Part shown: piece by piece, positions 1-14,759 of the stretch
How positions within the stretch are numbered: the first letter of the stretch is position 1
Layout of the letters: every line of letters starts with the position of its first letter
Assembly (NCBI RefSeq): GCF_028550435.1
Contig: NZ_JAQQKV010000005.1
Span: 1 to 64,000 of the forward strand
Source of the DNA: Asticcacaulis machinosus
GTDB lineage: Bacteria > Pseudomonadota > Alphaproteobacteria > Caulobacterales > Caulobacteraceae
Reading direction: 5' to 3'
DNA length: 64,000 bases
Position numbers and translations under genes: made by a program
Notes under the pieces: model-generated
What the model was told of the DNA's origin: nothing
Database searches by the model: none
Seen by the model: the letters and a program-made list of their open reading frames with translations, nothing else

Positions 1-132
1 GGCATAGGCGCGCAAAACCCGCGGCATCAACGCGCTTTGCGCATAGTCGTGCGCCGCATCGCGGATCAGCCGCTCTTCGTCGGATAACTGCGCATCCAGC
101 AGGAAAGGATCGAACCAGTCGAACTTACTCAT
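1..132 (-). CDS. gcdH: Glutaryl-CoA dehydrogenase, N-terminal part (runs off the window)
   Basis: Only the first 44 codons lie in the window; the gene continues past base 1. The start reads [20 protein letters not shown] followed by an [13 protein letters not shown] helix, the usual opening of glutaryl-CoA dehydrogenases of the acyl-CoA dehydrogenase family. These FAD enzymes oxidise and decarboxylate glutaryl-CoA to crotonyl-CoA at the end of lysine/5-aminovalerate degradation. The ATG overlaps the stop of the upstream aminotransferase gene (ATGA), so the two are probably translationally coupled. That coupling suggests the GabT/GabD-like neighbours act on C5 substrates. The active site is outside the window, so the call rests on N-terminal similarity and context. 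Confidence 0.8.
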
Positions 133-1406
133 GCCTTAAGTGCCTGTTCCAGTATCGCCATGCCTTCATCAAATACCGTCGCTGGAATTGTCAGCGGCAT
201 CAGAAAGCGCAGTGTTTCACCATAGATCCCGCACGATATCTGGATCAGCCCCAATTCCAGCGCTTTAGCTGTCACGCGCTTAGTGGCCTCCCCATCCGGT
301 TCATTACCACCGCGCACCTTGACCAGATCGAAGGCCATCATGGCCCCCAGACCGCGGATATTGGCAATTGGTAACAAGTCTTTACGACCGGCCCAGGCGG
401 CAAATTTCGCCCGCATCCGCGCGCCCAGAGCTTCTGATTTCGCCAGCAAATCCTCATCGGCAATCACCTGCTGCACAGCCAGTGCTGCCGCACACGACAG
501 GGGCGATCCGCCAAAGGTTGAACCCAGCCCGCCCGGATCGACAGCGTCCATGATGTCGGCACGCCCCAGAACCCCCGACAGCGGAAAGCCACCCGACATC
601 GATTTGGCCATAGTGATCAGGTCGGGCTCAACGCCGGCATGTTCGATGGCAAACATCTTACCCGTCCGCCCAAAACCGGTCTGAACCTCATCGATAATCA
701 ACTTGATGCCATGCGTATCGCACAGTTGGCGCAGAGCCTTCAGCAAGTCAGGCGGCGTGACGTGAAACCCGCCCTCTCCCTGGACCGGCTCGATAATCAT
801 GGCGGCGATACGCGACGGATCGACATCAGCGCGGAAAAGAGTCTCCAGCGCCTTGAGGCTGTCCTCAACCGTGACACCGTAATGCTCGACCGGAAACGGT
901 ACATGCCAGACTTCGGACGGCATAATGCCAAACTGTTTTTTGTAAGGCGTGACCTTACCGGTCAAGGCCGAGGTCATCAGAGTGCGGCCATGAAACGCGC
1001 CGGAAAAGGCAATCACACCGGAGCGACCGGTGGCGGCGCGGGCGATTTTTACGGCGTTTTCAACCGCTTCGGCGCCGGTGTTGAAAAATATGGTCTTGGC
1101 CGGCCCTGTAAAGGGCGCCCGTTTATTGAGGGTTTCGGCCAGTGCCACATAGGGCTCATACGGCAGAACCTGAAAACAGGTATGGTGAAAAGCCTTAAGC
1201 TGGGCCTCGACCGCCTCAATGATGCGCGGGTGGTTATGGCCGGTGTTCAAAACCGCGATACCACCGACGAAATCAATATAACGTCGCCCCTCCACATCCC
1301 AGACTTCGGCATTAAGCGCGCGGACGGCGAAGATACCACTGGCATTGGCGACCCCTCTGGGAATGGCATTCAGGCGACGGTTCATCAGATCAGAATTGCT
1401 CATCAT
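129..1406 (-). CDS. gabT: 4-aminobutyrate / 5-aminovalerate aminotransferase (class III, PLP)
   Basis: This 425-residue class III aminotransferase has the [15 protein letters not shown] phosphate-binding stretch near residue 110, the [13 protein letters not shown] motif with Asp239, and the PLP lysine K268 in [13 protein letters not shown]. These are typical of GabT/DavT, which move the omega-amino group of 4-aminobutyrate or 5-aminovalerate to 2-oxoglutarate. It overlaps the Rid gene upstream and gcdH downstream by ATGA. Since gcdH follows, the physiological substrate may be 5-aminovalerate (DavT), giving glutarate semialdehyde; sequence alone cannot separate the two. Two adjacent ATGs (1406 and 1403) could serve as start. 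Confidence 0.9.
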
Positions 1407-1774
1407 GCCACCGCTATTGCTTCGATTTCGACTTTCCAGCGCTCATCATAGAGCCCGCAGAGCGCCAGCGTCATAGTCGGCGCGATCTCAAGCCCCAGCA
1501 CGTCCTTACGGACTGAAATCATCTCCGGGATGTAGGCGCGATCAGTCAGATAGGTCGTCACCTTGGTCAGGTTGGCCAGTGTCAGGCCCGCATCCTTAAG
1601 CTGAGTCTCGACATTGCCCCAGGCCAAGCGGATCTGCTCTGCAGTATCTTCGGGGACATGGCCCGCCGCATCGACCGGGCCTTGGCCGCTTACGAACACA
1701 AGAGTTTGTGCATTTTCGACACGGTTGGTCTGCGCCCAGCCGGTGCCGGTGGGATTAATCGGTGTTTTTTTCAT
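1403..1774 (-). CDS. Rid (YjgF/YER057c/UK114) family protein
   Basis: A 123-residue protein with the Rid fold signature: a VSGQGPVD segment, a central NLTKVTTYLTD helix and a [10 protein letters not shown]-terminus. The start at 1774 is chosen because AGGA lies seven bases upstream; the open frame extends further but that part overlaps the dehydrogenase gene and has no family similarity. RidA enzymes hydrolyse reactive imine/enamine intermediates of PLP enzymes. Here the position matching the catalytic arginine of RidA (PAR motif) reads PTM, so imine deaminase activity may be absent and a related subfamily role is likelier. It lies between the dehydrogenase and aminotransferase genes of the same operon. 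Confidence 0.85.
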   Translation of the reverse strand: MKKTPINPTGTGWAQTNRVENAQTLVFVSGQGPVDAAGHVPEDTAEQIRLAWGNVETQLKDAGLTLANLTKVTTYLTDRAYIPEMISVRKDVLGLEIAPTMTLALCGLYDERWKVEIEAIAVA

Positions 1775-13507: not shown

Positions 13508-14553
13508 GCGGGGCTCCGTTCGCAGATCGTTTTCAATATATCGGCGACCTTGGCGGGTGACACGCTCGCTACCGCCTTAAGCGCCGTGATCGAACGCGGG
13601 GCATTGCGCATGATATAGGCGCCATTGGCCGGATGACGCCGTGCCCGCCAATGAGCGATGCCGACCGTAATGGCCCAGCGCGCTCTGACCAGATCAAAGA
13701 TCAGGTCAATTTCCGGCTCGCTCAGCGGCCGCACCGTATGGAACGCCACCACCATCTCCGACAAGGCGGTAATCGGATCATCGACTTCAAATAGCTGATA
13801 GGCCGCCGCGGTCGCCAGATCACATACGGCATGAGATCTGACCGCATCCCCAAAGTCGATCACACCACTGATCAATCCGCCATCGCCAACAATCAGATTA
13901 TGCAGGTTGAGGTCGTTGTGAATGAACTGAGTCGGCAATGCCGTAAGGGCTGGCCTGACCACCTCATCAAAGCGGGCAAAAACCGCCTCAGACATGTTTC
14001 GCACCACCGGATCTTCAACCGCGCTGAGCAATGGCCGGATACGGTCAGCGCGGGCGATATTCCACAGCATTTGAGTATCGGTATAGGAGGATGTGAACGC
14101 TTTAAGCGCCAGTACCATGCGCGCTGAAATCTGTGCCACCTGAAGGCGGATGGCATGTGACGGCGGCCAATAGGCCAGAGGCGTACCTTTGAGGTACGTC
14201 ACCAAACGGACAATATGGCGGGCGCCACTATCTGCCTCGATCAGGGCTTCATCCGCCCCCTCAATCGTCGGGATAAGATGCGGGATCGGCACATCCGTGC
14301 CCGTCCCCTCAAGATGGCCCAGCATGGCGTTCTGAAAGGCGGTCGTCGCCGGATCTTCAAGGGCGCTGGAGATTTTCAGCACATATTCGCCTTGGGTGGC
14401 CTTGAGGTGAAAATTGCGGTCGCGCTCTCCGGTCAGTTCCCGCATCTGCCCGTTCAGCCCATAGTGCTTAAGGGCAAGGGCCTGCGCCTGCGCGATTGAA
14501 ATGCGCGGCACATGGGTGTCGGACAAAGACGCTTCGGATTGGTTCGCGGACAT
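13504..14553 (-). CDS. APH-family small-molecule kinase (hydroxylysine kinase-like)
   Basis: A 349-residue phosphotransferase of the aminoglycoside phosphotransferase/choline kinase fold. YVLKIS gives the ATP-binding lysine, FIHNDLNLHNLIV the catalytic loop with Asp and Asn, and GVIDFGDA the metal-binding DFGD. The ATG at 14553 is preferred to an upstream TTG (14583). Its stop overlaps the start of the AGXT2L-type enzyme by ATGA. Kinases of this branch are often found with, or fused to, that phospho-lyase type, as in hydroxylysine kinase. Substrate is inferred only; homoserine/hydroxylysine/ethanolamine-type amino alcohols are all conceivable. Confidence 0.75.
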   Translation of the reverse strand: MSANQSEASLSDTHVPRISIAQAQALALKHYGLNGQMRELTGERDRNFHLKATQGEYVLKISSALEDPATTAFQNAMLGHLEGTGTDVPIPHLIPTIEGADEALIEADSGARHIVRLVTYLKGTPLAYWPPSHAIRLQVAQISARMVLALKAFTSSYTDTQMLWNIARADRIRPLLSAVEDPVVRNMSEAVFARFDEVVRPALTALPTQFIHNDLNLHNLIVGDGGLISGVIDFGDAVRSHAVCDLATAAAYQLFEVDDPITALSEMVVAFHTVRPLSEPEIDLIFDLVRARWAITVGIAHWRARRHPANGAYIMRNAPRSITALKAVASVSPAKVADILKTICERSPA

Positions 14554-14759
14554 GACGCCCTTTCGCTGGCTTGGTGACACCAAAGCCTACCCCCGATGCA
14601 CCGGGCTTTCGGGATGCAAAAGCCGCCTGCACTGGTGTTGCAGTGTCACCGCAAGAATAGGCGCCATCTATGGTGATGCTGGCGCACCACTGACGCCCGT
14701 ATCGGCAGCTTGGCAATTCAGGCAGCTTAGGCCAGTGTCAGCCATTCTTCTGCAACCGG
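14554..14759. promoter_or_regulatory. Divergent promoter region, kinase gene / PaiB-like gene
   Basis: This gap separates the minus-strand catabolic block from the plus-strand regulator gene. It contains a perfect inverted repeat TTGGTG-A-CACCAA at 14571-14583, a TGTCACC box at 14644-14650 and a looser TGGTG/CACCA pair near 14670-14693, all candidate operator sites. No confident -10/-35 pair was assigned. Confidence 0.45.

Follow-up and report, generated by a model that had tools for sequence, protein, structure and literature searches.

A conserved gene set for putative amide catabolism leading to glutaryl-CoA in Asticcacaulis machinosus

A putative operon with two predicted amide hydrolases

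The analysed stretch of the Asticcacaulis machinosus genome (64,000 nucleotides of contig NZ_JAQQKV010000005.1; hereafter the window) is the beginning of its contig and opens with a putative operon of 12 genes, all on the minus strand and running from position 14583 to 1 (Table 1). It encodes two different predicted amide hydrolases, one of the S58 family and the other with a beta-lactamase fold, together with transporters, aminotransferases and dehydrogenases. An earlier note on this DNA had combined these genes into a pathway for amides of omega-amino acids. The two hydrolases on one strand, with an RNTT self-cleavage site in the first and a SMAK motif and Tyr222 in the second, are found as described, and the TonB-dependent receptor, the POT symporter, the two omega-type aminotransferases and the semialdehyde dehydrogenase all match their family models. 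Of the glutaryl-CoA dehydrogenase only the start is present: its ATG overlaps the stop codon of the 4-aminobutyrate (GABA) aminotransferase gene as ATGA, and both window and contig end after 44 codons. Four operon genes had been missing from the earlier list, namely those for the APH kinase, the phospholyase-like class III enzyme, the LysR regulator and RidA.

Three gene pairs overlap by 4 bases, the kinase and phospholyase-type genes among them, four gaps measure 2–12 bases and the others 61, 106, 149 and 158 bases, so that transcription as one or a few transcripts is plausible. The same gene order is found in Asticcacaulis endophyticus and Asticcacaulis sp. UBA2476. A perfect palindrome, GTCACC-ATT-GGTGAC, lies upstream of the S58 gene; its counterparts in A. 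endophyticus and UBA2476 are imperfect, and none was found upstream of S58 in AC466 or Sphingomonas HITSZ_GF. The nearest solved relatives of the SpuC-type enzyme are putrescine/polyamine aminotransferases (6gwi being a putrescine aminotransferase), and those of the phospholyase-type enzyme are the phospholyase 5g4i and the ethanolamine-phosphate phospho-lyase 6tor. The kinase resembles the N-terminal part of PRK06148-type kinase/phospholyase fusions, matching this NCBIfam model at 6e-79 over the kinase part, under the model's whole-protein cutoff.

Table 1. Coordinates of the features discussed (window positions unless a locus handle, L, is given; PLP, pyridoxal 5'-phosphate)
Feature	Position	Strand	Evidence
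Glutaryl-CoA dehydrogenase, first 44 codons	1-132 (ATG at 132)	-	gene broken off by contig end
4-Aminobutyrate / 5-aminovalerate (GABA) aminotransferase	129-1406	-	TIGR00700 542 bits, cutoff 507
RidA-family protein	1403-1783	-	Pfam Ribonuc_L-PSP 2e-17
Succinate/glutarate-semialdehyde dehydrogenase (SSADH)	1845-3305	-	TIGR01780 675 bits, cutoff 646
SpuC-type omega-amine:pyruvate aminotransferase	3308-4678	-	PRK07480 674 bits, cutoff 510; 6gwi 3e-159
Beta-lactamase-fold serine hydrolase	4683-5870	-	8rlj (PIB-1) 1e-94; SMAK 122-125, Tyr222
LysR-type regulator	6029-7018	-	Pfam HTH_1 and LysR_substrate
POT family oligopeptide:H+ symporter	7031-8434	-	TIGR00924 248 bits, cutoff 130
TonB-dependent receptor	8444-10591	-	Pfam barrel 1e-39, plug 3e-19
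S58 / NylC-type amide hydrolase	10741-12147	-	NylC 5xys 2e-56; R-N-T-T residues 283-286
Palindrome upstream of S58	12208
Class III PLP enzyme, phospholyase type	12254-13507	-	5g4i 1e-113, 6tor 4e-99
APH-family kinase	13504-14583	-	Pfam APH 1e-27; accessory member
FMN_bind_2 flavoprotein	14760-15419	+, divergent	Pfam PF04299 1e-39
Second HutC-like regulator	15509-16240
GTCTAGAC	21337, 27565		exact copies
Histidine-utilisation set	21735-29734 (HutC at 29024)		Pfam; HutD and HutC by eye
IS3-type transposase-like pair	31332-32526		by eye
Arabinose-polymer utilisation-like set	33974-46211		by eye
Glutarate-type CoA-transferase, A. endophyticus	L046:15833-16486		217 residues, apparently truncated
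Glutaryl-CoA dehydrogenase, A. endophyticus	L046:16643-17812		1siq 7.5e-169, 3d6b 6e-186
CoA-transferase/hydrolase fusion, Altericroceibacterium	L037:12601-14925, L042:12603-14939		one in-frame reading frame
Carnitine-dehydrogenase-like and racemase-like genes	L050:2978-4575 (AC466), L060:1460-3257 (Sphingomonas)		adjoining module
S58, kinase and phospholyase group, Peristeroidobacter	L064:7563-14988
S58 ortholog and surroundings, Sinorhizobium fredii plasmid	L082:6094-15365

The two hydrolases as relatives of nylonases

The S58 family takes in beta-aminopeptidases. The solved structures closest to the window protein are NylC and then Nyl12 (9z0a, 2e-52), and a profile of 22 S58 sequences gave the same ranking, with NylC at 1e-78 among 17 matches at E≤0.01. 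The BapA (3n2w) and DmpA (1b65) chains are absent from these 17 matches, and 9yys, a chain named L-aminopeptidase/D-esterase, is matched at 4e-25. Among the best 50 matches listed for a fold search with the predicted model (mean predicted local distance difference test score, pLDDT, 76.5), NylC came first with 38% identity, and BapA and DmpA, at 15–18% identity, ranked under NylC, Nyl50 and ThnT. With both profile and fold searches favouring NylC, an identity as a beta-aminopeptidase of the BapA/DmpA kind was dropped. The autoprocessing pair N266/T267 of NylC corresponds to N284/T285 of the window protein, and N219 (N233 in the window), D306 and D308 likewise have equivalents; N284/T285, N233, D324 and D326 are invariant across the 22 sequences. 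Asn219 and Lys189 of NylC are presumed to be catalytic, according to the accessible part of PMC6021441. Lys189 is not kept, being aligned with Y204 in a column that varies among the 22 sequences, and we therefore term the window protein a NylC relative, by sequence and predicted fold, and not NylC. Other differences from NylC and Nyl12 are an apparent signal peptide, judged by eye, which suggests export, and an extra C-terminal domain of about 100 residues (from about residue 380; one helix and eight strands in the model). The domain is presumably a small barrel; DUF3471 matches it weakly, under the cutoff, and the 355-residue NylC chain stops before it.

For the beta-lactamase-fold hydrolase, the closest solved relative is 8rlj, followed by 4gb7 (1e-33) and by NylB-type chains from 2e-28. 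The structure 8RLJ was assigned to the PIB-1 paper through the reference list seen in part of PMC13269358. PIB-1, a metal-dependent class C-type beta-lactamase of Pseudomonas aeruginosa, shares with the window protein the family match and the S-x-x-K motif and tyrosine; unlike PIB-1 and NylB, the window protein sits in a catabolic operon. Ser112, Lys115 and Tyr215 of NylB correspond to S122, K125 and Y222, which are invariant across 13 sequences. By contrast, the functionally important Tyr170, Asp181 and Asn266 of NylB (chain 3vwl_A) are not kept, the window protein having H181, M191 and G274. By sequence the enzyme is thus PIB-1-like and more distantly NylB-like: of the two labels given earlier, NylC-like fits the S58 protein, whereas NylB-like is right for the Ser/Lys/Tyr residues and otherwise loose. 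No signal peptide was seen by eye, and the hydrolase is therefore probably cytoplasmic.

Since no solved structures are closer to the S58 protein than NylC and Nyl12, the two window hydrolases might be thought to degrade 6-aminohexanoate oligomers related to nylon-6. We regard this as very improbable: six-carbon monomers lead to adipate and not to glutarate, and neither the presumed catalytic lysine of NylC nor the three NylB residues are kept.

Conservation of the gene set

The beta-lactamase-fold hydrolase gene is present in 19 of 28 S58 neighbourhoods (18 of 27 if a near-identical pair is counted once), which we refer to as module neighbourhoods. The SpuC-type gene is found in all 19 of them, POT and LysR in 18 each, SSADH in 17, the TonB receptor in 16, FMN_bind in 14, the GABA aminotransferase in 12 and RidA in 5, and the order of the genes is shuffled between lineages. 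These counts are tblastn matches above chosen bit cutoffs (90; TonB receptor 120, LysR 140, SSADH 150 and SpuC 200) and include distant matches (SpuC at 36% identity in two neighbourhoods, SSADH at 33–39%, TonB receptor at 26–28% and FMN_bind at 32–37% in three each) and a short hydrolase frame of 268 residues in G133; several of the 28 neighbourhoods reach contig edges, and absences there are not firm. The 28 comprise, among others, four S58 paralogs of a single Peristeroidobacter genome, four close Asticcacaulis relatives (the window included) and a Sinorhizobium fredii plasmid. The 19 come from Asticcacaulis, Phenylobacterium, Sphingomonas, Altericroceibacterium, Niveispirillum, G953 of the Niveispirillum family, Kordiimonadaceae, Steroidobacter, Peristeroidobacter, Kangiellaceae and G788, which belongs to another class, and presumably span Alpha- and Gammaproteobacteria. 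The near-identical pair consists of the metagenome-assembled genome (MAG) Phenylobacterium 69_31 and Sphingomonas sp. Ant H11 (L035, L036), whose module loci are 99.9% identical in DNA, suggesting recent transfer, mislabelling or contamination.

Among 23 genomes of the window's genus, S58 is found in five, and the hydrolase in the same five and in none of the other 18 (Fisher p = 3e-5, kinship ignored). S58 proteins at large are common, with matches at E≤1e-20 in 78 of 149 family genomes, mostly at about 30–37% identity. The type studied here is rare: a match of at least 57% identity occurs in 7 of the 149, and matches at E≤1e-100 in 2 of 385 class genomes and 5 of 398 phylum genomes, the window's own genome being counted in each. 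Plasmid records with S58 matches number four, and the module is absent from the annotation of the two examined. Relatives of the hydrolase match 36 plasmid records; eight were examined (two Paracoccus, Loktanella, two Variovorax, Rhizobium, Agrobacterium and Niveispirillum cyanobacteriorum) and the module is annotated in none of them, although in the Variovorax records the examined stretch carries no annotation. On the Paracoccus sp. AK26 plasmid, LysR, aldehyde dehydrogenase and PLP aminotransferase genes are in the vicinity of the hydrolase relative, and on that of Rhizobium sp. NXC24 succinate-semialdehyde dehydrogenase and ectoine-utilisation genes; amino-compound contexts thus recur around hydrolase relatives.

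In the remaining nine S58 neighbourhoods, which lack the hydrolase, the SpuC-type, SSADH and GABA aminotransferase genes are all under the cutoffs. These copies outside the module, and accessory genes that vary between lineages, would fit two or more independent amino-compound pathways brought together by chance or by general amino-acid scavenging, with no common substrate. Against this stand the core, which stays together across distant lineages despite reordered genes, and the exact co-occurrence of S58 and hydrolase within the genus; we find such an assembly hard to credit.

The accessory genes differ in their distribution. The kinase/phospholyase pair is found in 5 of the 28 neighbourhoods and only once outside Asticcacaulis, in a Peristeroidobacter locus (L064) where POT, S58, LysR, the phospholyase-like enzyme and an APH kinase 32% identical to that of the window are grouped, the beta-lactamase-fold hydrolase being absent. 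AC466, G133 and a Sphingomonas, all without the kinase/phospholyase pair, have a gene resembling carnitine dehydrogenase (227 bits, cutoff 592) and a second one that looks racemase-like by eye and has no NCBIfam match.

Link to glutarate

The genes of the glutarate route, for an aminotransferase, a semialdehyde dehydrogenase and glutaryl-CoA dehydrogenase, stand side by side in the operon, the last being incomplete in the window itself. A complete glutaryl-CoA dehydrogenase gene lies 3' of the GABA aminotransferase gene in A. endophyticus and G068, at the same place as the fragment at the window start. The A. endophyticus protein matches solved glutaryl-CoA dehydrogenases closely, among them 1siq, which we take to be the human enzyme. 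After this gene A. endophyticus carries a glutarate-type CoA-transferase gene, apparently truncated. In G953 (Azospirillaceae) the order is CoA-transferase, glutaryl-CoA dehydrogenase, LysR (by eye), S58, hydrolase, POT, SpuC, TonB receptor, FMN_bind, SSADH, LysR and GABA aminotransferase. In both Altericroceibacterium genomes glutaryl-CoA dehydrogenase follows S58, and a CaiB-type CoA-transferase and the hydrolase form one in-frame open reading frame with no internal stop. The best model for the full-length CoA-transferase of Kangiellaceae is succinate--glutarate CoA-transferase, with 511 bits against a cutoff of 750.

A search of eight genomes, N. irakense included, for glutaryl-CoA dehydrogenase gave a match in every one, in G884 only at 49% identity. 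Two matches at E≤1e-120 are found in 3 of 25 genus genomes (G060, G068 and G971), and all three hold the module hydrolase. Three relatives have a second copy with 94–96% identity to the module copy of A. endophyticus, and the contig break inside the window gene may therefore stem from a collapsed repeat; the best other match in the window genome is 35% identical.

The family matches of the aminotransferase and semialdehyde dehydrogenase by themselves would leave the chain length of the substrate undefined. Both models being above their cutoffs, four-carbon GABA-type amides or putrescine-based compounds, such as polyamide-4 oligomers or putrescine siderophores, might be converted to succinate, with the kinase and phospholyase, which recur beside S58 in Peristeroidobacter, turning a hydroxylated four-carbon unit into succinic semialdehyde. 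Moreover, the known enzymes acting on polyamide-4 are predicted to have a catalytic domain of beta-lactamase fold with Ser/Lys/Tyr, according to the accessible part of PMC13269358. A four-carbon substrate would, however, leave glutaryl-CoA dehydrogenase and the glutarate CoA-transferase of several lineages, as well as the CoA-transferase fusion, unaccounted for, and the GABA aminotransferase and SSADH can serve a five-carbon route too; we consider it unlikely. Because glutaryl-CoA dehydrogenase and glutarate CoA-transferase join the module in several lineages, the gene content favours an amide of a five-carbon amine over nylon-6, beta-alanyl or GABA compounds, and the SpuC-type and GABA/5-aminovalerate aminotransferases together with the glutarate steps suggest cadaverine or its amides.

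The DavT/DavD/glutaryl-CoA dehydrogenase route, which leads from 5-aminovalerate to glutaryl-CoA, has the aminotransferase, the semialdehyde dehydrogenase and the glutaryl-CoA dehydrogenase in common with the module and, in relatives, the CoA-transferase. Unlike that route, the window module is joined to two amide hydrolases, a TonB receptor, a POT symporter and a diamine-type aminotransferase.

Proposed pathway

We propose, with a probability of roughly 0.5, that the operon serves the catabolism of an amide-linked compound from outside the cell, built of five-carbon omega-amine monomers, that is, cadaverine or 5-aminovalerate units. From the gene content we infer the self-cleavage of S58, the order of steps, the compartments and the substrate as follows. 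The TonB receptor would bring the compound into the periplasm, where the NylC-type S58 enzyme, self-cleaved at Asn284/Thr285, would cut it to dipeptide-sized pieces; POT would carry these into the cytoplasm for further splitting by the beta-lactamase-fold hydrolase. Deamination by the SpuC-type and GABA-type aminotransferases would then be followed by formation of glutarate by the semialdehyde dehydrogenase, and glutaryl-CoA dehydrogenase would convert glutaryl-CoA to crotonyl-CoA, with LysR probably acting as the regulator. The joint pathway of the earlier note is thus supported in part: the same gene set recurs in related genomes, it is co-conserved over distant lineages despite shuffled order, and a CoA-transferase is fused to the hydrolase. 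From its list of substrates, glutaryl-CoA dehydrogenase and succinate-glutarate CoA-transferase favour the cadaverine or 5-aminovalerate amides and disfavour nylon-6 and beta-peptides. The operon appears, then, to be a conserved set of genes through which an amide would be catabolised to glutaryl-CoA. What the NylC and NylB families do in nature is, to our knowledge, unsettled; by linking relatives of both to a five-carbon amine pathway, this conserved operon would give them a concrete class of natural substrates.

Desferrioxamines as a candidate substrate

A more specific and only tentative candidate for the five-carbon amide is offered by siderophores of the desferrioxamine type, polyamides of N-hydroxycadaverine and succinate. 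Their amide bonds would be cut by the periplasmic NylC relative and the cytoplasmic PIB-1/NylB relative, and the cadaverine halves would end as glutaryl-CoA, with the kinase/phospholyase handling hydroxylated relatives such as alcaligin. According to the accessible part of PMC6270104, the desferrioxamine family is built on N-hydroxy-N-succinyl-cadaverine, and bisucaberin B, a linear dimer, is a degradation product of desferrioxamine B formed by Azospirillum irakense. Passages of PMC10866069 report a specific hydrolase for the amide bonds in multiple Azospirillum strains, and according to passages of PMC11800396 bacteria obtain carbon and nitrogen from the iron-free form by degrading it with amidases. 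Deferrioxamine B alone suffices as the carbon source for Mesorhizobium loti LU, which most likely attacks it with a serine-peptidase-like enzyme (PMC5805875). In A. irakense and M. loti LU, then, the amide bonds of a siderophore are hydrolysed and the siderophore is a carbon source.

Azospirillum irakense is now Niveispirillum irakense, and its strain DSM 11586 (L041) carries S58, hydrolase, POT, SpuC and TonB receptor genes one after another, the run stopping close to the contig edge. The module is thus present in a species, the match being at species level, that is reported to degrade desferrioxamine. In the family of N. irakense, S58 at E≤1e-60 is found in 3 of 82 genomes, namely N. irakense, the Niveispirillum MAG G962 (L039) and G953. 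As only one species is concerned, we treat this link as a lead and not as proof. The window TonB receptor scores 141 bits with the TonB-siderophor model, under the cutoff of 223.5, and its solved relatives at E≤0.001 include several siderophore receptors as well as heme receptors. The accessible literature on A. irakense and M. loti LU does not name the genes responsible for the breakdown, and among the open-access matches listed, as far as their accessible text goes, nothing connects genes of the nylonase type to desferrioxamine or reports the present gene set. The module would thus supply candidate genes for bacterial desferrioxamine breakdown and, if the proposal is true, enzyme families that degrade nylon would have a natural nylon-like substrate.

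Several observations weigh against the five-carbon pathway or against its siderophore substrate. At least one glutaryl-CoA dehydrogenase is found in 21 of the 25 genus genomes, so that the enzyme is also common outside the module and its gene has no diagnostic value by itself. In five of the 19 module neighbourhoods the gene is complete, the CoA-transferase is likewise present in five (one truncated), and in N. irakense the dehydrogenase lies on a different contig from S58. S58 itself appears to have uses besides the module, as the nine neighbourhoods without hydrolase and aminotransferases indicate; on the S. fredii plasmid an S58 ortholog of 55% identity adjoins an amidase gene, and about 7 kb away, past intervening transposon genes, come panD (beta-alanine) and a gene for a D-Ala-D-Ala ligase. 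The type of TonB receptor varies between lineages, there is no ferrioxamine receptor among the solved receptor relatives at E≤0.001, and no hydroxamate-specific enzyme was recognised. Finally, the kinase/phospholyase pair and the carnitine-dehydrogenase-like and racemase-like genes are not explained by the proposed pathway; that they handle hydroxylated units is speculation.

Neighbouring genes

Downstream of the divergent flavoprotein gene the window holds a histidine-utilisation (hut) set, in which HutU, HutG, HutH, HutI and HutF were recognised by Pfam and HutD and HutC by eye. Between this set and the operon lie a second HutC-like regulator, an M14 peptidase and another TonB receptor. The sequence GTCTAGAC, which we take for a HutC-type site, occurs twice, before hutI/hutF and before the other TonB receptor, suggesting a regulon shared by the hut genes and the peptidase/receptor pair; no exact copy was found in the S58 operon. 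In our reading, the histidine and peptidase genes form a unit of their own, separate from the S58 operon.

Proximity of the hut set and of the second HutC-like regulator could also point to an imidazole-dipeptide pathway, in which carnosine, anserine or homocarnosine would be split by S58, the aminotransferases receiving the omega-amino acid and the adjoining hut genes the histidine; the S58 family includes beta-aminopeptidases and POT carriers import dipeptides. We hold this to be improbable. The hut genes adjoin S58 in only 1 of the 28 neighbourhoods, that of this genome, and carnosine and homocarnosine were dropped as substrates on account of this and of the missing operon copy of GTCTAGAC. 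Furthermore, BapA and DmpA are absent from the profile matches at E≤0.01, although the L-aminopeptidase/D-esterase chain is among them (4e-25, NylC 1e-78), they fall below NylC in the fold search, and glutaryl-CoA dehydrogenase and glutarate CoA-transferase would be left without a role.

Farther along the window, judged by eye, two frames resemble an IS3-type transposase pair, and a set of genes resembles one for utilisation of arabinose polymers, with two arabinofuranosidase-like genes, a GH43-like gene, a TonB receptor and an ABC sugar transporter.

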